From: a virus
DNA: 27,957 bases
Virus record (IMG/VR): IMGVR_UViG_3300038967_000018
Span: 1-27,957 of that record
Strand: one strand, 5' to 3'
Shown: positions 1,682 to 14,058 of the stretch, piece after piece
How the letters are laid out: the number at the start of each line of letters is the position of its first letter
How positions within the stretch are numbered: the first letter of the stretch is position 1
The notes under the pieces: generated by a model
The model's input: the letters and a program-made list of their open reading frames with translations, nothing else
Databases searched by the model: none
Told to the model about the DNA's origin: nothing
Made by a program: the position numbers and the translations under genes

Positions 1682-2183
1682 AACGTTCCGGCTGTCCCGG
1701 CAAGAAGACCTTGCCATTCGTCTCTTGGCCAGGCGGGCCAATAAACCGGTTGGGGAGTACATACGATTGGCAATGAAGGAACACCTGCGAGAGGTGTCAG
1801 ACACCCAAACGTTGGGTGGCAGACACCTTGAGGCCCTAACCAACCTAACGAAGCAGTACATCACCAGTGCCCAACTCTCCCTGCAAGCCTCCAAGGTTCC
1901 CATGAAGGAATCGAAGGAGCCAGGGCTTCCAGGGTCGCCGAAACGTGATGACCTCGAGGCCCTTGTCTGGAAAGCCATCCAAGAGGCTGTTTCCTACAGC
2001 AAGACCGAAGCCGCCGCCAAGGATGCAGAGGCAAGACTACTGGCGCTGCGCGTTGCCAACGGCCTAATGCGAACGGAGCTGGCTCTTCTGAAACACCAGG
2101 ACGATGCCTTCGTTGGCGCCCTCCTGGAAGAGCTAGGAGCGGATGCGAATGGGTTGGCGAGGAAAACTCAGAAAGGAAGCTGA
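1659..2183 (+). CDS. Candidate terminase small subunit (RHH-like N-terminus)
   Basis: The 174-aa protein has an N-terminal ribbon-helix-helix-like segment (residues about 7-46: a strand 'ETFRLSRQED', a helix, then 'KPVGEYIRLAMKEHL'). A polar linker and a long Ala/Glu/Lys helical region (about 105-160), likely an oligomerising coiled coil, follow. A DNA-binding domain plus helical oligomer immediately before the large terminase is the usual position and architecture of a small terminase, which recognises viral DNA and regulates packaging. That assignment is inferred from context; an RHH regulator is the alternative. It overlaps both neighbours (23 bases upstream, 41 downstream). Confidence 0.5.
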   Translation: MSKGSPRETFRLSRQEDLAIRLLARRANKPVGEYIRLAMKEHLREVSDTQTLGGRHLEALTNLTKQYITSAQLSLQASKVPMKESKEPGLPGSPKRDDLEALVWKAIQEAVSYSKTEAAAKDAEARLLALRVANGLMRTELALLKHQDDAFVGALLEELGADANGLARKTQKGS

Positions 2184-3024
2184 GGCACGCCGGAAGGAAG
2201 ACGAGGGCCACCCTGACGACCCAACTGGCCCACAGACACTTGACATGGAAATTGTCAAGGACGCCGTGAAGTTCTGCCAGGTATTTTTAAAATTCTTTCC
2301 GACTCCGTACCAGGTGAAGCTGCTCCTGGACGAAGGCAGGCGCATCTATGTCTGCTGGTCTAGGCAGAGTGGCAAGTCGACTACTCTCGCAGCCCGCATG
2401 ATCCAGCGCTGCCTACAATACCCAGGGACCTTGCGATTGATCGTGGCCCCAGGGTTGAGGCAAAGCATGATCATGATGGACAAGATTGAAGATTTCATTT
2501 ACAACATCCCCAAGCCTGTGCGCCGGCAGATATTCAGCAAAATTCAGCGCACCACGATCCGCTTCAAGAACGGATCCCGAATCATCGCGTTGCCGAACAG
2601 TCCCCAACTCTTGAGGGGCTACAGCGCCGCAGAAGTGCTCTGTGATGAAGCCGCGTTCTTCCGCGATGACGAGCTGATGTTCTTCAACGTTCTGTATCCG
2701 ATGCTTCAAACCACCGACGGCAGCTTGATCGCGAGCTCCACTCCCTGGGGCAAGAACACGGTCTTCTACAAGTTCTCCCTGACACCAGAGGCGCCTGAAG
2801 GATTCTCGAAGCACCACATAACCTGGGAAGATGTCGTGGACGCTAAGCTGGCAAAGAAATCTTTCATTGAAGAGATGCGTCGCAGCATGCCTACGGACCG
2901 TTTCCGGCGAGAGTTCGAAGCCGAATTTACCGAGGACGAAACCGCCTACCTCCTACAAGACCTGATCACCAGGTGCATCGACCCTGAAGCCTCATTCATC
3001 CCCGACAGCTTCTTCGGTTTCTAA
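2143..3024 (+). CDS. terL: Terminase large subunit, ATPase part
   Basis: This is the packaging motor ATPase of tailed viruses. In the 293 visible residues, Walker A is 'SRQSGKST' at 73-80, preceded by the adenine-binding 'TPYQ' at 54-57; Walker B is 'EVLCDEAA' at 164-171 with its acidic pair; the coupling motif is 'ASSTPWG' at about 197-203. 'RREFEAEF' near 256-262 is the usual end of the ATPase domain. The frame stops with TAA at 3022-3024, just where the RNase H-like nuclease domain should start, and that domain continues in another frame at about 3017-3556. A normal enzyme would be one protein of about 470 residues. The start is ATG 2143; in-frame ATG 2149 is an alternative. Confidence 0.93.
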   Translation: MRMGWRGKLRKEAEARRKEDEGHPDDPTGPQTLDMEIVKDAVKFCQVFLKFFPTPYQVKLLLDEGRRIYVCWSRQSGKSTTLAARMIQRCLQYPGTLRLIVAPGLRQSMIMMDKIEDFIYNIPKPVRRQIFSKIQRTTIRFKNGSRIIALPNSPQLLRGYSAAEVLCDEAAFFRDDELMFFNVLYPMLQTTDGSLIASSTPWGKNTVFYKFSLTPEAPEGFSKHHITWEDVVDAKLAKKSFIEEMRRSMPTDRFRREFEAEFTEDETAYLLQDLITRCIDPEASFIPDSFFGF

Positions 3025-3902: not shown

Positions 3903-5479
3903 CGAAGGCGAAGAACAAACCGTGGCCTCCCAAGCGGCGCAAGCGTTCCGCGACAAACAAGCGAAACGCTCATCGTAAGCGTTCCGCGACAAGTAAGCGG
4001 CCGATGATGGCCACCAAACGCGCCGAGGTGAGAGACCATCGTCCCGTAGCAGGGACCAGGACCCTGGGTTCGAATCCCGTGGGCGACTTCTCGGCGCTCG
4101 AGAGGATCCCAGGCGTCACGATCAAGGAGAACATGGTCTCCTTCCCCTATCCAGGAACGCCCCAGGGCGTACGGATTGCTGTTCATGCGAGCTCTAGGCG
4201 TGTTGCTGAAGCAGCCGCAATGCAGCTGAGCAACCTTCCCCTAAGTCGTCAACTCTCCGCGGCCAAGTCCAAGTATTACTTGGGCATGACGCAGACCATC
4301 TACGAAGCCTACAAGGGGATGGAGAAGCACTACCGCGCCTACCGCATGGACGCCATCGTGCGCGGATGCATCAACGCCCTCGCATACTGGTCCACGAAAG
4401 AATCCTTCGACACCGTTGTGGAAGCCGTCGGCGAAAACCTAACTCCCGTACAACAGCAAACGATCATTGACCAGAACCTGCCGTTGAAGCAGTGGATTGA
4501 CAAAATCAACCTGCGCGTCGACCTGGACCATGCCCTTCGCAACGCAATCATCAAAGCCAAAATCTACGGGAAGGCAGGCTTCGAAATTGAACTCAACCAG
4601 AAGAAGGAGCCGAACCGCCTCATCTCCCTCCCACTCCTAACCATATTCGACCTTCGCCCCGACGTGAACCAGGATTGGGAGCTGGAAGGTTTCTGGTGGC
4701 GTGGCCAGAAAGACTTCTACGCCCCAGGCGAGCTCCTCTACTTCACGAACAACTCCCTCGAATCCGATTATGAAGGCATCAGTGACATTGAACCTGTCCT
4801 GGATGATGTGGAGACCAGGGCGAAAATTCGCATTGAAGACCTGAAGGAGGCCGCGACAACCCTCTGGGCAGGGATCGCAATCCACAGCCTCGACGTCGAC
4901 CGCTTACCCGCAGGATTAACCGACGCCGACGTGCAAGCCCTGATAGACGCGCACATCGCCTCGCTGCGACCTGGCAAACACGTTGCCACCGACAACCGCT
5001 GGACCATCCAGGTCATTGACCTGAAGCCCGACCTACAAAGCCTCGTCGCAGTCAAGAACGACTTGGACCAGGAGATTATCGGTAACTTCCAAGTTCCGAA
5101 ATTCATCCTCAACCGCACCGAACAAGTGAACCGGGCAACAAGCTACACGCAGCTGGAATCCTTCGTCGACGGACCCATCACCGACATTCAACGTTGGATA
5201 CAACGAGCCGTCGAACAGCAATGGTACACACCATTAACCCGCTTCTATCTCAAGGTCCCGGAAGGCCAGGACCCGCCGGTCCGCGTGAGGCATCGGTGGC
5301 GTGAGATTCGCACAACTGATTTCTTCGCACTCCTAGCCGCAGTCGCCGCCGCCTACGATGGTGGCCTCGGCGTGATTGACAAGCCGAAAGCCTACGAGAT
5401 TATGAGGGACGGTCCAAGCGCCAAGTTCGACCCCGCCGAACTCGCGGAAACGGAAGAGACGGAGCCAACCGGACAATGA
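3899..5479 (+). CDS. Portal protein
   Basis: This is the dodecameric ring at the capsid vertex through which DNA enters and leaves. At 526 residues the length suits a portal. Recognisable parts are a helical clip/stem region with 'YRMDAIVRGCINALAYW' (about 143-160), a wing with 'GKAGFEIELNQKKEP', the 'YAPGELLYFTNNS' strand, and 'GNFQVPKFILN' followed by an 'RATSYTQLESF' helix. These match portal families of the HK97/SPP1 type and context agrees (after terminase, before the head protease). The first 55 residues are Lys/Arg/Ser-rich and contain a duplicated 12-residue unit, unlike normal portals; ATG 4132 could be a later start. The end overlaps the next ATG (ATGA). Confidence 0.85.
   Translation: MTKAKNKPWPPKRRKRSATNKRNAHRKRSATSKRPMMATKRAEVRDHRPVAGTRTLGSNPVGDFSALERIPGVTIKENMVSFPYPGTPQGVRIAVHASSRRVAEAAAMQLSNLPLSRQLSAAKSKYYLGMTQTIYEAYKGMEKHYRAYRMDAIVRGCINALAYWSTKESFDTVVEAVGENLTPVQQQTIIDQNLPLKQWIDKINLRVDLDHALRNAIIKAKIYGKAGFEIELNQKKEPNRLISLPLLTIFDLRPDVNQDWELEGFWWRGQKDFYAPGELLYFTNNSLESDYEGISDIEPVLDDVETRAKIRIEDLKEAATTLWAGIAIHSLDVDRLPAGLTDADVQALIDAHIASLRPGKHVATDNRWTIQVIDLKPDLQSLVAVKNDLDQEIIGNFQVPKFILNRTEQVNRATSYTQLESFVDGPITDIQRWIQRAVEQQWYTPLTRFYLKVPEGQDPPVRVRHRWREIRTTDFFALLAAVAAAYDGGLGVIDKPKAYEIMRDGPSAKFDPAELAETEETEPTGQ
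3941..3999 (+). repeat. Two direct 23-base repeats in the portal N-terminus
   Basis: Bases 3941-3963 and 3977-3999 match except for two positions (AC versus GT) and lie 36 bases apart. They encode 'KRSATNKR' and 'KRSATSKR', giving the portal a basic, histone-tail-like N-terminus. The 36-base period is 12 codons, so the reading frame is kept. Confidence 0.8.
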
Positions 5480-5646
5480 GACCTAGAAAAGAAATCATGG
5501 CGGACCTGGCCAAGAGGACCAAGGAAATAGGTCAGCCTGGTGACATGGCGCTGTTCTTCGACCTCGCAGTACTCGAGGTACTCCTCGACATACGAGACCT
5601 CCTAGCACGTACGAAGCGCCAGTCAGCGGTTCTTAGTGATGCATGA
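5476..5646 (+). CDS. 56-residue helical protein after portal
   Basis: The ATG overlaps the portal stop (ATGA at 5476-5479). The product is charged at the N-terminus and ends in an amphipathic leucine-rich helix ('DLAVLEVLLDIRDLLART'). I do not recognise a family, though small coiled-coil proteins next to portals are common. Its stop overlaps the next ATG (TGATG). Position suggests a portal accessory or a translation-coupling gene; this is inference. Confidence 0.55.
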   Translation: MRPRKEIMADLAKRTKEIGQPGDMALFFDLAVLEVLLDIRDLLARTKRQSAVLSDA

Positions 5647-5771
5647 TGGGGAAAAGAGGGATGCAGCGCCGCGGCTTACAGCCTGGCGTTGAACACGCTC
5701 CTGGAAAGAGTCCCCACACAAGGCGCCGAAAGCCACGCCTGATCAAACTTCCAATTCCTGTTTTGGCGTGA
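5646..5771 (+). pseudogene. Upstream fragment of an interrupted zinc-ribbon gene
   Basis: A 41-codon frame starts with ATG overlapping the previous stop (TGATG). It encodes a basic peptide ending '...RRRKPRLIKLPIPVLA'. Its last part matches the reading frame before the zinc ribbon at about 7191-7226 ('RKPHLIIRLPIP'). After 'LPIP' the frame is lost, but the next frame still reads 'FGVIALDFCQTPELA', which resembles 'YGVSVLTDYCPYC..PLA' at 7230-7290. I read it as the broken 5' part (or left copy) of a gene whose intact 3' part lies on the far side of the transglutaminase gene. Confidence 0.5.
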
Positions 5772-5800
5772 TCGCCTTGGACTTCTGCCAAACTCCGGAA
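5728..5800 (+). repeat. Left diverged copy of zinc-ribbon segment
   Basis: This segment matches 7188-7290 imperfectly, both in DNA (both contain CTTCCAATTCC and a CCTGATCA core) and in the encoded peptide (RKPxLI..LPIP..GV..L..C). The left copy carries a frameshift and has lost the second cysteine of the first CxxC. The two copies bracket the minus-strand transglutaminase gene. Confidence 0.55.
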
Positions 5801-5834
5801 CTGGCTATTGATAGAGAGACTAGGATTGCAGCGA

Positions 5835-7088
5835 TCAGCTTCGTTTTCTCTTCATGAAGAAAAGTGCTGCCCCGATAACGATCACTATTACCGCAACTAC
5901 AGCAACCATCAGAATGGTTCCGTTTCCAATCGTCTCAGGCGATGTGACGGGAGTTGAGATGTTTTGGATTACGCCTGAAGAGAGGGTTTGATTTAATGCA
6001 GTTGTTGAAGGAGCGATGCTCGTACTGGTGGAACTAGACTGAGTCATTATAGTTGATGTCACAGACGCGGTCGCTGGCCCTTGAAAGCCTTGAGTGATCA
6101 CTGGCTCTTCGCCTGAGAATACCGACTGGAACTTTGGTCCTGATCCCCATGCCCGCTGGTACAGATAATTCACCGACATTACCGGAACGTCGCCGCCATC
6201 CAGTTGCGCGAATGTTCCAACAGTCGGATCAGCTGGTATCCAACCATAGTTGGGGATAAAGAAGTGAACCCAGCTGTGTTTGTTGCTTCCGTCGTCCACT
6301 ATTTGCCATTTTCCAGTCGCTCTAGACCCCCAGATGTCAGCCGTCGGAATTCCATCTGCTCTTGCCAGCGCGGTGAACAATGCTGCAAAATGTCTACAGA
6401 CGCCTTTCCCGGATCTGAGGGCGTACAGCGCGCCTTCTGTGTTAGGGTTCCAAGGAGTAACGGCAGCCATGTCGTAGGTCATGTGTTGAATGACGAAGCT
6501 TTGTATCTTCGCGGCTACGAGGTACGGATTGGTTTCTCCTCCGGCAATCTCTTTCGCCTTCGCGATTATTTCTGGACTGTCGCTCTCAATGTATTGGGCG
6601 GGTTGGGTGTACAGTTTGTAAAGTTGAGAGCTAGTATCGTAGTTTCCAACCTTCGCAGAGTCTACTACGTAGCTGATCGAGTAGACTGTGAAGTGCTGCA
6701 ATACCGTCACATAGAACTGCCCCAAATCGGATTGCGACTGAAAGCTGATCCTTAAGACAGTGTTTCCAAGTTCGTCCACGCTGGTCTGATTTGTGAACGA
6801 CAAGCTGGGTTTAACAAGAATCATCGTGTCGGCGATATTGACGTACGCAAACGGTTGGATGATATGCATAAACAACACGAACGTTGGCGAATTTGGAGCA
6901 TTTACGAAATACGTGTAGTTGGCAGTCAGCTCGCGTGGGTTTGAGAGAGTATAGCCGGTAGAAGTGTAGATATCGACGGATGCTGGTGGAGTGCTAAGGG
7001 CGGCAGCCCTGCTAGTGAGGGTCAACGCAAGGACTAGAATCAAAGTTGCTGTTACGATTACGATCCTAGAGGAGGATCGACGAGACAT
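5835..7088 (-). CDS. Exported, membrane-anchored transglutaminase-like protein
   Basis: The 417-aa protein has a signal peptide (residues 1-30: basic start, hydrophobic core, 'SRAAA'), an extracellular N-terminal beta domain (about 35-165), a transglutaminase-like cysteine domain (about 170-300), a Ser/Thr-rich stalk (340-385), a membrane helix (392-412) and a KRKR end. The catalytic triad is complete: Cys231 in 'GKGVCRHFA', His271 in 'HSWVHFF', Asp287 in 'PADPT'. The family either crosslinks or cleaves peptides; direction and substrate are unknown. ATG 7088 is preferred to the longer frame from 7271 because it begins a signal peptide and has AAGGAAC just upstream and a TATA-like box at 7124-7131. 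The gene opposes all virion genes and interrupts a zinc-ribbon gene, so it is probably acquired cargo acting on the cell surface. Confidence 0.85.
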   Translation of the reverse strand: MSRRSSSRIVIVTATLILVLALTLTSRAAALSTPPASVDIYTSTGYTLSNPRELTANYTYFVNAPNSPTFVLFMHIIQPFAYVNIADTMILVKPSLSFTNQTSVDELGNTVLRISFQSQSDLGQFYVTVLQHFTVYSISYVVDSAKVGNYDTSSQLYKLYTQPAQYIESDSPEIIAKAKEIAGGETNPYLVAAKIQSFVIQHMTYDMAAVTPWNPNTEGALYALRSGKGVCRHFAALFTALARADGIPTADIWGSRATGKWQIVDDGSNKHSWVHFFIPNYGWIPADPTVGTFAQLDGGDVPVMSVNYLYQRAWGSGPKFQSVFSGEEPVITQGFQGPATASVTSTIMTQSSSTSTSIAPSTTALNQTLSSGVIQNISTPVTSPETIGNGTILMVAVVAVIVIVIGAALFFMKRKRS

Positions 7089-7123
7089 GTTCCTTCTGCA
7101 GCAATCATTCGCTGAAGACCTTT

Positions 7124-7131
7124 CTCTTAAA
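7124..7131 (-). promoter_or_regulatory. TATA-like box for the transglutaminase gene
   Basis: On the minus strand TTTAAGAG lies about 40 bases upstream of ATG 7088. That would place transcription start some 10-15 bases before the AUG, leaving room for the AAGG ribosome site. It supports independent expression of the cargo gene. Confidence 0.4.
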
Positions 7132-7187
7132 CGTTCATGGCATACGAAGCCCACAACTGACCGATTTCGAGCTGTGAAAGAGACGGG

Positions 7188-7290
7188 CACCGGAAGCCCC
7201 ACCTGATCATCAGGCTTCCAATTCCAAAGTATGGTGTTAGCGTCTTGACCGATTACTGTCCCTACTGCCACTACCCCCTCGCCGAAGTTG
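7188..7290 (+). repeat. Right copy of the zinc-ribbon segment
   Basis: Counterpart of 5728-5800. Unlike the left copy it keeps an open frame through to the zinc-ribbon stop at 7341-7343. Confidence 0.55.
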
Positions 7291-7343
7291 AGGCAGCCGA
7301 CGGCACGATCACGAAGAAATGCAATTGGTGCATGCAGATCTAG
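7245..7343 (+). CDS. Small zinc-ribbon protein or 3' half of a split gene
   Basis: From TTG 7245 this encodes 32 residues with two zinc knuckles, 'YCPYC' and 'KCNWC', 19 residues apart: a minimal treble-clef or zinc-ribbon unit. The same frame is open back to 7161, so the protein may be longer, and the similar segment at 5728-5800 suggests the original gene started at 5646 and had about 80 residues. Either translation from TTG (GGTG lies about 10 bases upstream) or pseudogene status is possible. A zinc ribbon could bind nucleic acid or protein; its role is unknown. Confidence 0.5.
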   Translation: MTDYCPYCHYPLAEVEAADGTITKKCNWCMQI

Positions 7344-7363
7344 GCCAGGATTCGAGAGGCGTG

Positions 7364-7462
7364 ATGTTTTGGTGGGTTGCGGCTAAGGTGCGTCAGTCCG
7401 CAATCAAATCAAGACGCACTACCACGCCCGAATATTCCTGGTCTAATCTGAAGCAGATCTAG
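7364..7462 (+). CDS. Possible 32-residue protein
   Basis: ATG 7364 follows GAGAGGCGTG closely and the frame runs to TAG 7460-7462. The peptide starts 'MFWWVAAKVRQ' and ends 'NLKQI'. Its last ten bases, GCAGATCTAG, are identical to the end of the zinc-ribbon gene (7334-7343). It coincides with an inverted-repeat element at 7367-7476, so it could be chance reading of a structured region. No family is recognised. Confidence 0.3.
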   Translation: MFWWVAAKVRQSAIKSRRTTTPEYSWSNLKQI

Positions 7463-7476
7463 TAATCCCACCAAAA
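7367..7476. other. Inverted repeat enclosing two smaller hairpins
   Basis: TTTTGGTGGG (7367-7376) pairs perfectly with CCCACCAAAA (7467-7476). Inside lie GTGCGTC/GACGCAC (7388-7394 with 7413-7419) and a small hairpin, ATCTG-AAG-CAGAT (7446-7458), which can extend past a bulge by three pairs. Together they could fold as a three-way junction. The element sits between convergent genes, so it may be a bidirectional terminator or a structured RNA. Confidence 0.4.
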
Positions 7477-7478
7477 AA

Positions 7479-7517
7479 GCACGGCGTCGAGGCGCGTTCG
7501 TCTATGAAGCGCCGTGC
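7479..7517. other. 8-bp perfect hairpin next to the junction
   Basis: GCACGGCG (7479-7486) pairs with CGCCGTGC (7510-7517) around a 23-base loop, starting two bases after the previous element. It overlaps the end of the small minus-strand frame at 7502-7639. It may terminate transcripts coming from the minus-strand surface gene. Confidence 0.4.
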
Positions 7518-7639
7518 GTCTCTATCATTTCTGATATAGATCTGATATACGCTCGCAGATTTCGGTCCCCAATCTTCGACATTTGGACGTAGTCCAAGCA
7601 CGGGTTATGATAGTTCCACGCATCATCCATACGTCTCAT
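7502..7639 (-). CDS. Possible 45-residue protein, unknown
   Basis: The minus-strand frame from ATG 7639 to TAG encodes a plausible folded peptide ('MRRMDDAWNYHNPCLDY...', then a helix with 'LRAYIRSISEMIE'). I do not recognise it. No ribosome site is visible, but CTATAG lies roughly 28-33 bases before the ATG, the spacing expected for a leaderless archaeal transcript. It lies 63 bases beyond the stop of the DNRLRE gene on the same strand and could be co-transcribed with it. Confidence 0.4.
   Translation of the reverse strand: MRRMDDAWNYHNPCLDYVQMSKIGDRNLRAYIRSISEMIETHGAS
7530..7549. repeat. Direct repeat TCTGATATA with 11-base period
   Basis: TCTGATATA occurs at 7530-7538 and 7541-7549. An 11-base offset places both copies on the same face of the helix, as in tandem operator half-sites. 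It falls inside the small minus-strand frame, so the regulatory reading is weak. Confidence 0.3.
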
Positions 7640-7702
7640 GCAGTAGGGGGAGCCAAGATCGTTTGGCTATAGCAGATCGTATGTTAGGGTCTCGGAGGGA
7701 GT

Positions 7703-9046
7703 TCATCTTCTGCGAGTGCGCGTTCTCTTCGACAGCGAGAATACAACGGCTGCTGCGGCAATCATCGCCACGATCTCTAACATTGTCATGCTATAATCGT
7801 CCCGCCAAACTGCGTCAACCCTTTTGGGTCCATCGATGATGATCGAGCACATCGGTGCAGTTGCGGCGCAGTCTTGCGTCCAGCGATCAAAAACATGCTG
7901 AACTCCCAAAAACCCCATCACCCCCTCAGAGAACACTCTCGTAGGTTGAACTGTGGCATATGCAACTTCGCCTGCAGAGTACCAGCCTGAACCGTTCGTT
8001 GAAGCGTAAGGCGAGTAAACGTCAAGCCTATATTGAATTTGAAAGTTGGCCCGCAACGTCAAATCATTTCCAATGTCGATGTCGCGGTTCCCCGAACTAA
8101 AATTGTCGCTCCAGCCTACAAAAATGCCATTCTCTCCCTGCCCCATGGAAACAGATGCGGGAACAGCAATATGGTGAACGCCCCATGGCACTGGAACCTT
8201 CAACACTCCGCTGCTATCCGATTGAAAGCTCAAGCCATCCACAGTTGCTGTAAGGTGAGGTAACGAAGTCGCAAGCGTCAGTGTCGGCTCACGGAAATAC
8301 AGGTTGAGTTCCGGCAAGAAAGTCATGTTTCCTTCCCGCGCTCTCGAGATGAACCATGCATCATTCATCGACGACGTGAAACCAGCCATCAGAGCGAAGG
8401 AACTGACACCACTCTGAATGTCCCGGGTGACATCGCTGGTCACGTTCCACCGGTACCATCGGTTAGCTCCACGAACGAGGTTTACGTCATAATGGCTCAT
8501 GTCGATCGCAGGCATATTATTCCAAGTCAACGTGTTCTCACGCCAATCGTTACTAGGAACATGATAGACTCGAACGCTCGCGTTGTAGAATCCGTTCACA
8601 AATTCAGCGAACAACCACAGAGACGCGTTCAATGGGCGAGCATGAGAGGCGACAATCGCATAAGGCAAAACGCCTGTCGTGTTAAACTTGAGGAAAGCAA
8701 TATCCTCCAGGACTGGGACAGTGGGTACGTTTTGAACGATCACCACGAGAGGCGTGGTAACGAAATTCGGATTAACTATCGTTGGGGCGGGCATGGATAG
8801 CATATTCCGTGAAGGCAATGATCTATCTGCGAATACTGCATCGCTCGGGAAAATTGCGCATCCGAGGATTCCAGGCGACTGCTGGATGCAACTCCCTAAG
8901 TTGCCCCCCAATTCGTGGTCCTGAGTTTCGACTGGGTGCCAAACGTATTGGTAGTCGTAGCTTCTCCCAGCGGCAAAATAATTAGCCTGTGAAACCACAA
9001 CTAGAAGAAGTAGCGAGACTAACACAATCCTGACGGCAATCAACAT
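7703..9046 (-). CDS. Exported DNRLRE/CBM96-type surface protein, membrane-anchored
   Basis: The 447-aa protein starts with a signal peptide (residues 1-22). Residues about 110-252 form a DNRLRE-type (CBM96-like) beta-sandwich with its hallmark order: 'AFLKFN', 'VRVYHV', 'WRENTLTWNNMP' (168-179), 'WYRWNVTSDV' (197-206), 'FISRAREGN' and a closing 'PELNLYF'. Two repeat-like beta domains follow (about 258-330 and 335-418, the second with two cysteines and 'FDRWTQDC'). A membrane helix and a TRTRRR end come last. Such domains are found in extracellular adhesive and carbohydrate-binding proteins; the ligand is unknown. Many NxS/T sites suggest glycosylation. It opposes the virion genes and is probably accessory cargo displayed on infected cells. 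ATG 9046 has a weak ribosome site; GTATATG at 9108-9114 may be its TATA box. Confidence 0.75.
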   Translation of the reverse strand: MLIAVRIVLVSLLLLVVVSQANYFAAGRSYDYQYVWHPVETQDHELGGNLGSCIQQSPGILGCAIFPSDAVFADRSLPSRNMLSMPAPTIVNPNFVTTPLVVIVQNVPTVPVLEDIAFLKFNTTGVLPYAIVASHARPLNASLWLFAEFVNGFYNASVRVYHVPSNDWRENTLTWNNMPAIDMSHYDVNLVRGANRWYRWNVTSDVTRDIQSGVSSFALMAGFTSSMNDAWFISRAREGNMTFLPELNLYFREPTLTLATSLPHLTATVDGLSFQSDSSGVLKVPVPWGVHHIAVPASVSMGQGENGIFVGWSDNFSSGNRDIDIGNDLTLRANFQIQYRLDVYSPYASTNGSGWYSAGEVAYATVQPTRVFSEGVMGFLGVQHVFDRWTQDCAATAPMCSIIIDGPKRVDAVWRDDYSMTMLEIVAMIAAAAVVFSLSKRTRTRRR

Positions 9047-9145
9047 TATAGGGCCTGCTCATTTGTGAGTAGATTTGCGTTGTAGGTTGCGTTGTGTTGA
9101 TCGCGGTGTATATGCGTAGTGTTCGTAGTGTCCCAGGGAAAACCC

Positions 9146-9165
9146 ATGCAAATCATGCATTGCAT
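9146..9165. promoter_or_regulatory. Palindrome ATGCAA-N8-TTGCAT, possible operator
   Basis: Perfect 6-base half-sites surround an 8-base centre that itself contains ATGCA. It lies between the minus-strand surface gene (start 9046) and the plus-strand small gene (start 9189), the place for a shared operator. Apart from this, 9047-9188 shows only the TATA-like GTATATG at 9108-9114. Confidence 0.35.
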
Positions 9166-9188
9166 CTTAATGAGAACAAGCTATCGAT

Positions 9189-9335
9189 GTGCTTGAGCTT
9201 TTCTTGGCCGTTGTGGCCATTGCGTTAGAACATCGGAAGAGAGATCAACGTCTTTTCATCCCTGTGCCTTCAGAAGAAGAAGCTGCACGCGTTAGAATGC
9301 GTGATACCGTCACGAAACTTAATCATCCCTCATAG
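9189..9335 (+). CDS. Small single-pass membrane protein, 48 aa
   Basis: From GTG 9189 the frame encodes 'MLELFLAVVAIALEHRKRDQ' and then a polar helical tail ending 'KLNHPS'; TAG is at 9333-9335. The N-terminal helix (about residues 2-13) followed by HRKR would give a membrane anchor with a cytoplasmic tail. Codon choice (GCC, GTG, GCG in the helix) looks like coding DNA. The ribosome site is poor, so the start is uncertain. No family is recognised; small membrane proteins near virion genes can be lysis or exclusion factors, but nothing here shows that. Confidence 0.5.
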   Translation: MLELFLAVVAIALEHRKRDQRLFIPVPSEEEAARVRMRDTVTKLNHPS

Positions 9336-9364
9336 TTGCAGATTTTGATCCCGTTCTCTGCAAC
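9335..9364 (+). other. Hairpin GTTGCAGA / TCTGCAAC
   Basis: Eight perfect pairs (9335-9342 with 9357-9364) surround a 14-base loop. It begins at the stop of the 48-aa gene and precedes the two motif hairpins, so it could end that transcript or form the first arm of a structured leader. Confidence 0.5.
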
Positions 9365-9371
9365 AAGCGTG

Positions 9372-9410
9372 GAAAGGGAAGCCTAACACGGGATAGGCTA
9401 ATCCCCTTTC
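9372..9410 (+). ncRNA. Structured leader motif, copy 1
   Basis: Seven outer pairs (GAAAGGG 9372-9378 with CCCTTTC 9404-9410) enclose an asymmetric internal loop (single A on the left, AATC on the right). Six inner pairs (AGCCTA 9380-9385 with TAGGCT 9394-9399) carry the loop ACACGGGA. Copy 2 at 9439-9476 has the same plan with different paired bases, which is covariation and supports a conserved RNA fold. Confidence 0.65.
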
Positions 9411-9438
9411 ATTAGCTCCGTCCGCTACGAGAAGCTTG

Positions 9439-9476
9439 CAGGGAGAAGCGCAACACGGAACGCGCTAAACTCCCTG
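9439..9476 (+). ncRNA. Structured leader motif, copy 2
   Basis: Seven outer pairs (CAGGGAG 9439-9445 with CTCCCTG 9470-9476), a single A on the left against AAA on the right, five inner pairs (AGCGC 9447-9451 with GCGCT 9462-9466) and the loop AACACGGAAC. It ends eight bases before the GGTGAT ribosome site of the head protease gene, so folding could affect translation of the head operon. Confidence 0.65.
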
Positions 9477-9498
9477 GTATTCCTGGTGATATGTGTTG

Positions 9499-11148
9499 AT
9501 GAGTGTAGAGGATATCAAAGCAGTGAACTTGCCGGAGATCGCTAAGTTCCCTGACCGCGAAAGTTGCGTAGCCGCGCACGTGAAAGAGGGCCTCAGCGAA
9601 GCGGCAACTAAGAAAATTTGCGGCCACTTCCCAAGCAAGCAAAGCCTGCGGAAGGTCTCCTTCGCCTACCAGGCCACCTTTGAACCGTACGAGGAACAGG
9701 GCAAACACCTGGCCAAGATCCACGTCATAGACCTAGCCCCGAACCTCAACAAGTGGCAGGTCACGCCTGCCGCTCGAGCGAAGGCCCTCAAGACCCTCCT
9801 AGACAGCCCACTCCTGGGGCCACCGCCTGAAGGTGAGAAAGGGAACGTGATTGGAGGCCCACCGGGATCCCCACATGAGGGTTTATGGTCCCCTGTTGGC
9901 CACTTCGTAGACTTCGAATCGAACCACGTCACCCACGGCATCGCCGAAATCACCAAGGACTATGCTTGGGAGAAAATCAAGAACGGCGAATGGAGCGCAG
10001 TCAGCCCCTCGGTCCTGGCGTTCCTTGAACACCAGGAAGGCGACGTCGCGGTTGTGGATGATTTCAATTTTGAACACGTACTCTTCGTTGACAAAGGCGC
10101 CTACCCGGAAGCAGGCGTAGAATCGACCTACGACGCGGGATTCTACCAAGCCCTGGCCACCGCCGCGGAGAAGCAGGCGTTTTCGATCACTGACCAAGAC
10201 CTGTCGGTTATGGAGAAGGCGGTGCAGAGTGCCCGCGGCATCCTAACTGCGCTCGAGGAACGCCTCGAGATTATACTCGGCGGCAAGCCTGACGCTGAAC
10301 CGCCCGTTCAGCCTTTGCCGCTTTCTTCTCACAACCGCGTGAGTGATGGAGAGATGAGTCCTGTGAGGCCTAGTCCAAGCCCTAACCAGACGCAAGGCCT
10401 CGAGAACAAACTGGGCCAGAAAATGGAGGGTGGTAACGAAATGAAAACCACTCAAGCATCCTTCGGAGACGCTTCCTTCCCGGATGAATGCTTCGCCTAC
10501 GTCCCACCTGAAGCCAAAGGCCAAGATGGGAAAAAGAGCCTCAGGTCCTTGCCGTACAAGAACTCGGATGGTTCCGTAGATGAGGGACATTTGCGTAACG
10601 CATTGGCCCGATTCAACCAGACCGACATCCCGTCGGCAGGGAAAGCGGGGGTTCTTTCGAAGCTGTGTAGTGCAGCGAAGAAGGCGGGAATTGATTCCGA
10701 CTTCTGCAAGGAACACTCCGAGGAGATGCATCAATCAAAGGAGGAACAAACATTGGATAATGAATTACAAGCAAAGGTCACAACCCTCGAAGCAGCAAAC
10801 GTCGCACTCAAAACAGAGAACGAATCGCTCAAGGCCTACAAGGCTGAGGTCGAAAAGAAGCAGCGCATGGCCAAGGTTCAATCCATAGTGGACCTGAAAA
10901 CCCACTGCGGCATGTTGGACCCAAAGGACCACGCCCAAGCCTACGTGGACTTGGAGAAGCTATCAGCTGATGCACTCGACGCAATCGAGAAAGAACTGAC
11001 AGCTGTCCGAGCACGTTTCGACTCGATGCCTTCTGGCCCAAAGGCGAAACACACGGCTGAAGAAGCATACAACACCGTCGAAGACATCAGGCAAGCAATG
11101 TTCGGCTATCGCCGAGACGAGAAAGGCCAGATCATAGGAGGTAACTAG
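9499..11148 (+). CDS. Prohead protease fused to scaffold
   Basis: The 549-aa protein appears to join the head maturation protease to the scaffold. Residues about 45-215 look like a phage prohead protease ('AWEKIKNGEWSAVSPSV' at about 157-172, with Ser169 or Ser171 as candidate nucleophile and several upstream histidines). Next come a Pro/Ser-rich linker (about 260-310), a 'FPDECFAYVPPEAK' to 'KKAGID' module (about 326-405) often found beside such proteases, and a coiled coil (about 419-458). ATG 9499 is chosen because GGTGAT (9485-9490) lies eight bases upstream; GTG 9493 and TTG 9496 are in frame but too close to it. It is followed by the decoration and major capsid genes, the standard order. 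Confidence 0.8.
   Translation: MSVEDIKAVNLPEIAKFPDRESCVAAHVKEGLSEAATKKICGHFPSKQSLRKVSFAYQATFEPYEEQGKHLAKIHVIDLAPNLNKWQVTPAARAKALKTLLDSPLLGPPPEGEKGNVIGGPPGSPHEGLWSPVGHFVDFESNHVTHGIAEITKDYAWEKIKNGEWSAVSPSVLAFLEHQEGDVAVVDDFNFEHVLFVDKGAYPEAGVESTYDAGFYQALATAAEKQAFSITDQDLSVMEKAVQSARGILTALEERLEIILGGKPDAEPPVQPLPLSSHNRVSDGEMSPVRPSPSPNQTQGLENKLGQKMEGGNEMKTTQASFGDASFPDECFAYVPPEAKGQDGKKSLRSLPYKNSDGSVDEGHLRNALARFNQTDIPSAGKAGVLSKLCSAAKKAGIDSDFCKEHSEEMHQSKEEQTLDNELQAKVTTLEAANVALKTENESLKAYKAEVEKKQRMAKVQSIVDLKTHCGMLDPKDHAQAYVDLEKLSADALDAIEKELTAVRARFDSMPSGPKAKHTAEEAYNTVEDIRQAMFGYRRDEKGQIIGGN
10441..11148 (+). CDS. Probable nested scaffold from an internal start
   Basis: An in-frame ATG at 10441 is preceded by GGAGGGTGG (10425-10433) seven bases upstream, one of the best ribosome sites in the window. 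It lies exactly between the protease-and-linker part and the C-terminal part. The 235-aa product would hold the 'FPDECFAYV' module and the coiled coil, i.e. scaffold without protease. Lambda-like phages make scaffold this way inside the protease gene. Inferred from the site and the domain boundary. Confidence 0.5.
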   Translation: MKTTQASFGDASFPDECFAYVPPEAKGQDGKKSLRSLPYKNSDGSVDEGHLRNALARFNQTDIPSAGKAGVLSKLCSAAKKAGIDSDFCKEHSEEMHQSKEEQTLDNELQAKVTTLEAANVALKTENESLKAYKAEVEKKQRMAKVQSIVDLKTHCGMLDPKDHAQAYVDLEKLSADALDAIEKELTAVRARFDSMPSGPKAKHTAEEAYNTVEDIRQAMFGYRRDEKGQIIGGN

Positions 11149-11150
11149 TC

Positions 11151-11579
11151 ATGCCATCAGCAGGTGACATTGACATGGTACACGCCTTCTTCTTCTTGCC
11201 AGTCACCAAGAACGCCACGGCAACCATCACGAAAGGCCAAATCATCAGCCTCAAAGACGGCCGGCCCTGGCAGGCTGGCGACAAGGGACCATTCGGCGTA
11301 GCCAACCAAGGCGTAGCCAGCGGCGCGGACATGAAAGGCAAAATTGTCATTGACGGCATCGTCTACGTGGCTGCGGCGGGTGCAATAGTGCAGTTCGCCC
11401 CAGTTGTACCCAGCACAGTAGCCTACGTCACCACAGCCTCAACCCTAGCGTTGGGCACAGGCGCATCAGGTGGCACCGGCATGACCGGCTCACTGATGCC
11501 AGGCGGAATGATTCTCGGCATGGGATTCGATGCAACAACGAACCCTGGCGATCTCCTCCGTGTGAAACTGAAGAATTAG
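11151..11579 (+). CDS. Head decoration/stabilisation protein
   Basis: This 142-aa Gly/Ala/Thr/Val-rich beta protein has no signal peptide or helix-rich region. Its sequence moves through short strands ('ATITKGQIISLKDG', 'GKIVIDGIVYVAAAGAIVQF', 'PGDLLRVKLKN') in the manner of DUF2190-like capsid decoration proteins that cement the shell. The place between protease/scaffold and the major capsid gene is the normal place for such a protein. It starts two bases after the protease stop. The family name is tentative; the decoration role is inferred from order and composition. Confidence 0.6.
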   Translation: MPSAGDIDMVHAFFFLPVTKNATATITKGQIISLKDGRPWQAGDKGPFGVANQGVASGADMKGKIVIDGIVYVAAAGAIVQFAPVVPSTVAYVTTASTLALGTGASGGTGMTGSLMPGGMILGMGFDATTNPGDLLRVKLKN

Positions 11580-11591
11580 GAGAGATGAAAC

Positions 11592-12578
11592 TTGGACATA
11601 CTTGAAGGTGGATTGAAAGGAGAACTTCAGGCTCGTGCTTGGTTCGACCCAGCCAGCAACAACATTTACCAGGGTAAAGTCAGCGACACCGGCCGCGTAA
11701 TCTTCAATGCCCGAAACGTGAAACAGGCTGCATTACCCAGCATCACGGACATCAGCGCAGTCAACATCGCTATACTACTCCAGGAAATCCTAGGCCTCGA
11801 AAGGCCAGTCTACAACCTACGCAACGCAACTCGCATCATCCCGATGAATGCGCTCAAGGCCACGATTCCAATATTCACCAAGCCCACAGCGTCAGAGAAG
11901 GTTCCAGCGCTAACCGAGGCATCACTAGAATCCGCCGGATGGAGCAGCATAACCTTCCAGCTCTGGAAGAACGTTGCCCACATAGTCATGCCAGACGAAA
12001 TTGAGAAGATGGCTAACGTAGACATCTTTGGAACTCAAACCCGAGACGCCGCAGGCGCATTAGCAGCCAGCGAGAACAGCCAGATCAGCGCAGCCTTCGC
12101 CGCAGCAGGTGGAGCACAGCCTGCCGCGAGTGGACTCTGGTCCGCAATATCTAGCGGAGGCAACAGCACATACAACCCATACACGGACATTATCAGCGCC
12201 ATGACTACGATTGCAACCGCCGGCTACAGGCCGACCTCAGTAGTGATGCACCCAACCGGATGGGCGCCTTTCTTCGGCAACAGTTACGTGAAAGGCCTAA
12301 TGGCTGGAGCCGCGTACCCAGACCTCTCGCAGGGCGGTGGATTTCCACTCCCCGGCCTACCGGGAGTAACAGGGTTCAGCGACTTCTTCATAACCCCAAC
12401 GACCAGCTGCTACGTGTTGGACCCAGCAGCCGCAATAATTTTGGGTTCAGGCCCGACTGAAGCGGCACGCTATCGCAATGAAGCTGCAGGCTACGACGCA
12501 TTCATCATGCGCCAGTGGCTGCAACCACTGACCGGCGTCACGACTGCGATCGAAGAAATCACCAACGTACACGCATAA
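11592..12578 (+). CDS. Major capsid protein, HK97 fold
   Basis: The 328-aa protein forms the icosahedral shell. It has an N-terminal arm, a region 'NATRIIPMNALKATIPIF' typical of the first strands of HK97-fold capsid proteins, a helical spine region with many Ala residues (about 140-175), the P-domain/A-domain 'YRPTSVVMHPTGWAPFF' and a C-terminal strand with 'AFIMRQWLQPL'. Length and order fit. The start is TTG 11592, with GGAGAG about nine bases upstream. No long N-terminal delta domain is present, consistent with a separate scaffold supplied by the protease gene. Two hairpins follow the gene. Confidence 0.82.
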   Translation: MDILEGGLKGELQARAWFDPASNNIYQGKVSDTGRVIFNARNVKQAALPSITDISAVNIAILLQEILGLERPVYNLRNATRIIPMNALKATIPIFTKPTASEKVPALTEASLESAGWSSITFQLWKNVAHIVMPDEIEKMANVDIFGTQTRDAAGALAASENSQISAAFAAAGGAQPAASGLWSAISSGGNSTYNPYTDIISAMTTIATAGYRPTSVVMHPTGWAPFFGNSYVKGLMAGAAYPDLSQGGGFPLPGLPGVTGFSDFFITPTTSCYVLDPAAAIILGSGPTEAARYRNEAAGYDAFIMRQWLQPLTGVTTAIEEITNVHA

Positions 12579-12606: not shown

Positions 12607-12660
12607 CCCGTCACCCATGACGGGAATGAATTTCTTACCTCACTCTTTCCCCCGTGAGGT
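12607..12660 (+). terminator. Two hairpins after the capsid gene
   Basis: CCCGTCA (12607-12613) pairs with TGACGGG (12618-12624) over a CCCA loop, and ACCTCAC (12637-12643) with GTGAGGT (12654-12660) over ten bases. They lie in the 131-base gap between capsid and neck genes and could end, pause or stabilise the capsid transcript. A poly-T run is absent, so read-through is likely. Confidence 0.45.
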
Positions 12661-12709
12661 GCCGTTCCCATTCATTGTCATGATTGTAAGATAGTAGAAG
12701 GTGGAATAC

Positions 12710-13352: not shown

Positions 13353-13600
13353 CGCCGCCGGCGAACGTTCCGGCCACGCGTTGGAATTGCATCTGCCACC
13401 CAGGCCTGCAGTACAGGCGCCCGCACTTCACCTGCCTGGCATTCTGTCGAATCAAGAGAGTCGCCCAGGGAGAGCTCCCCTCACTTATCCTCGTCAGCCG
13501 ATATCGCATGTACATCCACCTGGGGCGGCCGCATGCCAAAGCCAAGGACTGGTTGCTTCGGAAATTCGTGTTCCCGGTCGCTGAGTGGTTAGCAAATTGA
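13205..13600 (+). CDS. Probable head-closure-position protein, unknown family
   Basis: This 131-aa protein lies between adaptor and tail terminator, where the head-closure protein is usually encoded, so that role is inferred from order only. The convincing coding part starts at about residue 22 ('GRLIPFDQFGPHALIMRDVL'), followed by a Cys-rich segment ('WNCICHPG...FTCLAFC') that could bind zinc, which is unusual for a neck protein. GGAGAG at 13196-13201 supports TTG 13205 or GTG 13208. The first 20 residues may not be authentic, because the overlapping frame at 13158 looks better there. The stop overlaps the next TTG (TTGA). Confidence 0.55.
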   Translation: MVFLLRQNLPDGSSVQPSPSQGRLIPFDQFGPHALIMRDVLDGSLCMQMTPPANVPATRWNCICHPGLQYRRPHFTCLAFCRIKRVAQGELPSLILVSRYRMYIHLGRPHAKAKDWLLRKFVFPVAEWLAN

Positions 13601-14058
13601 CTTCTGCACCTCGAGAGGATGTCCGCGCAGCCTTCGTTGCAGTTCTCACAGCCGCGAACCTGGGAGTCACGATCTACAAGGAGTTGCCGTTCGATGGTGC
13701 GGACACTCGAAGCATCTACCTCACCATAGTTTCAGGGACCAGCAAGAGCCCTGGCGCTGGCATGCGCGGCGGACCTGCAACCGCGCCGGGTGGCCTGGCG
13801 GTCATGAACATGTACCATTTGCAAATCGACATCAACTATGATGATAAGGCGGGGTGCGGGCAACTGGCCGACAAGGTTGAGCAGGCCGTCTGGGAAGCCC
13901 ACGACGACCTACGAGACAACCACGATATTCACGGGCTACAGAAGATCCTTGACGTCGACACGTTACCGTTAGGTGCCAGCGTTCGACTTCCCGTTCTCAC
14001 TCGAGAAGCCAGGGTGATTCAAGATTTCATGTTCTGGACGTACAGGCAGCTGACGTAG
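13597..14058 (+). CDS. Candidate tail terminator / neck protein
   Basis: The 153-aa protein shows an opening helix 'VRAAFVAVLTAANLGVTIY', central strands ('SIYLTIVSGTSKSPG', 'MYHLQIDINYDD'), a helix 'LADKVEQAVWEAHDDLR' and closing strands. This alpha-beta layout matches tail terminator/tail completion proteins (lambda gpU/SPP1 gp17-like), which cap the tail tube and join it to the head. It agrees with position before tube genes. TTG 13597 is chosen because it overlaps the previous stop (TTGA) with GAGTGG just upstream; GTG 13585 is possible. Confidence 0.55.
   Translation: MTSAPREDVRAAFVAVLTAANLGVTIYKELPFDGADTRSIYLTIVSGTSKSPGAGMRGGPATAPGGLAVMNMYHLQIDINYDDKAGCGQLADKVEQAVWEAHDDLRDNHDIHGLQKILDVDTLPLGASVRLPVLTREARVIQDFMFWTYRQLT

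Follow-up and report, generated by a model that had tools for sequence, protein, structure and literature searches.

Upstream of the head genes of a tailed virus that probably infects uncultured archaea lies an element made of two kinds of hairpin, A and B. The pairing of hairpin B is kept by selection, and the hairpin is locked 8 nt from the Shine-Dalgarno (SD) sequence of the first head gene. We propose, with a probability of about 0.6, that the element is a clade-specific, cis-acting leader RNA of the transcript for the putative protease, the scaffold and the major capsid protein (MCP), with a function that its position and conservation suggest to be linked to translation. The DNA studied, referred to as the window, is the whole stretch of 27,957 nt, positions 1-27,957 of IMG/VR record IMGVR_UViG_3300038967_000018.

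The virus and its relatives

The window carries terminase, portal, scaffold, HK97-type MCP and tape measure genes and belongs to a tailed dsDNA virus. Searches with the MCP recovered four close relatives, L023 (88% identity), L024 (72%), L025 and L026 (both 70%), to which the portal search added L031 and L027, the latter 100% identical over the portal but with a record that stops before the leader; wider MCP searches added L033-L036. A genome scan with a narrow MCP profile gave no match, whereas the wider profile found seven contigs of Bathyarchaeota metagenome-assembled genomes (MAGs) with MCP relatives at 37-44% identity. Since these relatives sit in Bathyarchaeota MAGs, the host is probably a member of the Bathyarchaeia, an assignment based on the MCP and not on a spacer match; GGTGA-type SDs precede genes more often than expected, which is consistent with an archaeal host. 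Among cultured phage records, no relative of the window MCP or portal was found, and the element itself gave nothing beyond a 22-nt chance match.

The N-terminal part of the terminase (window 2143-3024, L023 91-1035) is only 37% identical between the window and L023, in contrast to 81-88% for portal, protease and MCP, and judging by this divergence the packaging module of the window is to be regarded as a recombinant. The terminase reading frame in the window looks short.

The head block was recognised by the scaffold (PHROG 673) and MCP (PHROG 10) genes downstream of a protease-like gene, whose name is putative, coming from its position and from an earlier note on this DNA; its sole PHROG match is a family of unknown function.

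9499-11148, plus strand: protease-like gene, first of the protease-scaffold-MCP block; relatives 80-85% identical
11151-11579, plus strand: head scaffolding protein (E 2.7e-07)
11592-12578, plus strand: MCP (E 2.3e-08; Phage_capsid just under the cut-off; relatives in Bathyarchaeota MAGs)

Hairpin B is conserved at a fixed distance from the SD

The earlier note had described two neighbouring hairpins before this block, the second of them eight bases before GGTGAT, and both fold as it said.

9372-9410, plus strand: hairpin B1, GAAAGGG-A-AGCCTA-ACACGGGA-TAGGCT-AATC-CCCTTTC; MFE -16.9, z -3.25
9439-9476, plus strand: hairpin B2, CAGGGAG-A-AGCGC-AACACGGAAC-GCGCT-AAA-CTCCCTG; MFE -20.0 kcal/mol, z -4.81
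9485-9490, plus strand: SD sequence GGTGAT

The z-scores of these two folds are against dinucleotide shuffles. The plan, as seen in B1, is a 7-bp outer stem, an internal loop of 1 x 3-4 nt (A opposite AAT(C)), an inner stem (AGCCTA/TAGGCT) and a loop, ACACGGGA; a pattern that captures it, GAAGC-n-AACACGG-n-GCTAA, occurs twice in the window, with 0 occurrences expected from shuffles. Approximately 0.5% and 1.5% of all 45-mers of the window fold as well as the two hairpins, so that stability alone is unexceptional in this genome and relatives were needed to settle the case.

One intact B is present in each of L023, L024, L025 and L026, directly before the protease-like gene, that is, in every close relative with an intact leader; in L031, B is degenerate (11.7 bits), with the protease gene still present. 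A covariance model built from the relatives L023, L024 and L025 only (R2), which avoids circularity, found B2 in the window at E 3.9e-14 and B1 at E 5e-6, and nothing besides these two in the whole window at E <= 1. Over five distinct B sequences, 98.3% of cells are paired, 6 of the 12 pairs carry double-sided changes, and the covariation score is 0.60 versus 0.23 in shuffles, none of which (0/500) reached the observed value. The observation in the earlier note that pairing is kept while bases change thus extends beyond the window: more copies that covary precede this gene in L023-L026, and because every close relative with an intact leader has one, its reading does not fall for lack of them.

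The distance to the SD is likewise constant. B2 ends 8 nt before GGTGAT and 22 nt before the ATG of the protease-like gene (9499), and the 8-nt spacing is exact in 5/5 genomes. When B1 is aligned in its proper register, the stems of A (see below) and B together comprise 80 Watson-Crick pairs, 3 G-U wobbles and 0 A-C mismatches, read on the plus strand. All three wobbles are G-U on the gene-sense strand, which, although three events are few, favours an element that acts as RNA with the same sense as the head genes. An N-terminal coding extension of the protease was considered and rejected: in the window, a TGA at 9487 closes the frame, and the L025 gene is listed without an upstream extension; in L023 the open frame by chance reaches farther upstream.

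The element appears to be specific to the clade of the window, where alone it was found. A consensus pattern run across all of IMG/VR returned four clade contigs only, and looser loop patterns gave mostly chance matches, the true ones belonging to the same clade. With model R1, E values below 0.01 were obtained in G000-G004 at the B site only, and 257 genomes of the probable host class, which include no positive control, gave no match at E <= 0.001. The evidence base is a single clade, which offers three complete A-B units and five different B sequences.

A partner hairpin with a complementary loop

Accurate for B1 and B2, the initial description of the element missed a partner hairpin, A, which lies 6-8 nt upstream of B and has a loop complementary to that of B.

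9335-9364, plus strand: hairpin A1, 8-bp stem GTTGCAGA/TCTGCAAC, 14-nt loop TTTTGATCCCGTTC; MFE -11.2, z -2.3
9348-9354, plus strand: AUCCCGU in the A1 loop, predicted to kiss ACGGGAU of B1
9388-9394, plus strand: predicted kissing segment of B1, ACGGGAU, complementary to 9348-9354
9414-9436, plus strand: candidate A2, a short hairpin (AGCT..AGCT) that includes GCTCCGT (9415-9421) and would pair weakly with B2

The A stem is kept in L023 (CTCGCAG/CTGCGAG) and L025 (CTCGCGGA/TCTGCGAG), and of five pairs counted, two show double changes. The A loop, RUCCCGU, is complementary to the B loop, ACGGGAY, across 7 nt, with 7/7 pairs in the window, L023 and L025; the outermost of these covaries, being A-U in the window and G-C in the two relatives. 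Docking would require the innermost A-U pair of the inner stem to open, since the last base of the B1 segment is part of it. The kissing stretch varies very little, with one covarying pair in the three sequences plus one in the weak A2-B2 pair. Shuffles of the loops themselves match the observed complementarity in 1.4-9% of cases, and the 7 bp of A1-B1 in 1.4-3.5%, so that each instance alone is modest evidence. When A, B and the kissing pairs are scored together, 98.6% are paired, 9 of 24 pairs carry double changes, and 0/500 shuffles reach the score. This joint pattern of complementarity and covariation makes it quite probable that A and B form a kissing complex.

In L023, single-strand folding mispairs A with downstream sequence. 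L024 has lost A and has an intact B without an A beside it, so that A may be non-essential. Candidate A2 is tentative, because its hairpin folds no better than shuffles; its GCTCCGT faces ACGGAAC of B2 with one mismatch, UCCGU pairing with ACGGA, and relative to the A1-B1 loop pairing there is one double change, from C-G to U-A. The window accordingly holds one full unit, A1-B1 (9335-9410), and B2 with its weak A2. The left arm of B could also pair with CCTGG overlapping the SD in L024 and, less completely, in other genomes, as a possible switch; because the pairing is weak in L025, we do not claim it.

The element in a locus that receives cargo

Where a sampled Bathyarchaeota relative has both a portal and a protease gene, the two lie side by side or almost so, and model R1 found no B in these loci. 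Because these relatives run the portal into the protease with little or no gap, a leader function would not be general to head operons.

Between the same two genes, the window (5479-9499), L024 (2405-3905) and L031 (3105-6519) have a cargo hot spot. On a Bathyarchaeia-class contig (L101, G038:C96, 1194-2612, minus strand), portal and protease homologues adjoin and leave no room for a leader. The window cargo comprises transglutaminase-like and CBM96 genes on the minus strand, with a broken copy of A at the edge of the latter:

7551-7569, plus strand: broken A copy, in which the left arm and some of the loop remain (GCTCGCAGATTTCGGTCCC) before the interruption (compared with L025)

The L024 cargo is a gene for a DUF559/Vsr-like endonuclease, situated between a broken A-B and the intact B, and that of L031 spans several kb, includes a glycosidase-like gene and ends in the degenerate B. 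By contrast, L023, L025 and L026 keep the element without a large insert. Since relatives carry one intact B and the locus hosts variable cargo, the tandem arrangement in the window is, as this comparison suggests, one outcome of duplication and insertion here and not the basic form of the element. The proposal of a duplicated RNA element in the earlier note therefore stands as far as the two window copies are concerned, both of which were found by the relatives-only model, but the duplication is peculiar to the history of this locus.

A small Cys4 zinc-ribbon ORF (DYCPYC...WCMQ) lies at 7246-7342 in the window, 3728-3835 in L025, 2675-2773 in L024 and about 3660-3762 in L023. It is upstream of A in the three relatives and upstream of the broken A in the window, and its product is a candidate regulator. 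Another cargo site is located among the neck and tail genes, where the window has no insert (13600-13607) and relatives carry 0.2-1 kb extra with small membrane-protein-like genes (L131 14671-14906, L133 12874-13576, L135 7407-8449); inspected by eye, this site has no evident hairpin borders.

A second element lies on the other side of the MCP gene, so that A-B and C-D bracket the protease-scaffold-MCP block:

12607-12668, plus strand: element C-D, just 3' of the MCP gene, CCGTTCC after hairpin D; fold z -2.8 to -3.7

The motif, CCTCAC-n-GTGAGG followed in most copies by CCGTTCC, is kept in L023 (7000-7085 and 7705-7790), L024 (7042-7120), L025 (6990-7070) and L026. The two copies in L023 are diverged and flank a cargo gene, and hairpin C is degenerate in this genome. 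A scan of viral sequences for hairpin D returned the clade and a handful of other matches.

Comparison with described elements

The impression that no known class fits was borne out by Rfam, which yields no family even in permissive searches: with Rfam 15, the whole window gave one sub-threshold match at E <= 5, elsewhere than the element, the element alone gave chance matches far below gathering, and the L025 element gave none. The tandem hairpins of guanidine-II (mini-ykkC) riboswitches carry ACGG in their loops and are able to kiss, and in these respects resemble the element. This class was nevertheless rejected: there is no Rfam match, the B loops (ACACGGGA and AACACGGAAC, 8-10 nt) are larger than the ACGR tetraloop, and the context is the capsid, not guanidine metabolism.

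An intrinsic U-tract terminator was rejected, B2 being followed by GTATTCCTGG, which has no U-run; a terminator consensus gives two matches in the region versus 0.6 expected, and just one of the two falls within the element, on an alternative hairpin of B1. Matches to a sigma-70-like promoter are near chance, and this candidate was rejected as well. To our knowledge, few structured regulatory RNAs have been described for archaeal tailed viruses. In a paper on Bathyarchaeia viruses, there is no mention of a hairpin or of an intergenic or untranslated element (PMC10848311).

Discussion

Collectively, the features to be looked for in a translational leader are present: an RNA structure on the plus strand, 8 nt from the SD in 5/5 genomes, with G-U wobbles only. 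The pattern strongly suggests that the 14-nt loop of A docks onto the loop of B through a kissing helix of 7 bp, so that the two hairpins would fold compactly together. As B reaches to the upstream edge of the 30S binding site, we infer that the folded leader would control how ribosomes load on the head operon. The leader could prevent upstream sequence from pairing with the SD and shield the 5' end of a heavily used mRNA, or it could be the site for a regulator, either a head protein or the zinc-ribbon protein encoded before A, that blocks or allows initiation. In either case, it probably helps to set the expression strength of the capsid-building genes.

Phages offer parallels in translational operators to which a virion or replication protein binds, such as the MS2 coat operator and the T4 gp43 and RegA sites. 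Like these, B is an imperfect, bulged hairpin with a conserved loop near the SD of a structural or replication gene, where ribosome binding would be governed; unlike them, it stands 8 nt upstream of the SD and excludes it, is part of a pair of hairpins with complementary loops, and belongs to an archaeal tailed virus. Of the functions considered in the earlier note, a regulatory leader or protein-binding site would fit best, whereas a packaging-type signal is unsupported because the virus is of the tailed dsDNA type and RNA packaging does not apply.

The same locus could also be read at the level of DNA, with A-B as a landing site or boundary for cargo, be it the target of a homing endonuclease or the border of a cassette, and with the tandem copies as insertion scars. 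Cargo does occur at this point in several genomes (in the window, CBM96 after the broken A; in L024; in L031), C-D is likewise duplicated around a cargo gene in L023, and the opposite-orientation cargo and the nuclease gene at an intergenic point recall moron and free-standing homing-endonuclease sites of tailed phages. Yet it is pairing that is conserved at the site of these insertions: a target of a nuclease or integrase should keep its sequence, not its pairing through compensatory stem changes, the G-U-only wobbles and the fixed SD distance point to RNA and translation, and the element persists in L023, L025 and L026 without a large insert. As a replacement for the leader RNA we regard this as unlikely; the leader and hot-spot roles are compatible, and the element can be both.

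Even less probable is an antiterminator resembling put, an RNA that would bind the elongating archaeal RNA polymerase and allow read-through of the long head-tail operon. HK022 putRNA, about 70 nt with two stem-loops (PMC9378689), is similar in architecture and size to A1-B1, which likewise places two adjacent stem-loops in about 70-80 nt of a tailed-virus leader, near the start of the late block. However, put belongs to early leaders and has bacterial RNA polymerase as its binding partner, acting on the zinc-binding domain of beta', and a kissing helix goes unmentioned in the parts of that source consulted (PMC9378689), whereas our element has 7-bp loop complementarity and a fixed SD spacing, which antitermination does not need.

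Equally doubtful is an arrangement in which A-B (5') and C-D (3') bracket the head message as nuclease barriers or processing sites. Structured elements do stand at both ends of the block, and the other cargo site has no such structures by eye, but the C hairpin of L023 is degenerate, no processing motif of a known type was identified, and a fixed SD spacing would be unneeded. Chance, non-functional hairpins, an idea encouraged by the stability of each hairpin alone not being rare in the window, are refuted for B by the independent model matches and the covariation across relatives, leaving only A2 as tentative.

Returning to the leader RNA, one may tentatively go further and envisage a new class of kissing-loop leaders in tailed viruses of Bathyarchaeia: a regulated translational operator of the capsid block that has a sister element downstream of the MCP gene and whose DNA doubles as a cargo hot spot. 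The covariance model of A-B can be used for finding further examples. If our reading is true, A-B would be a small, testable control of capsid production in a group of viruses for which no cultured relative was found.
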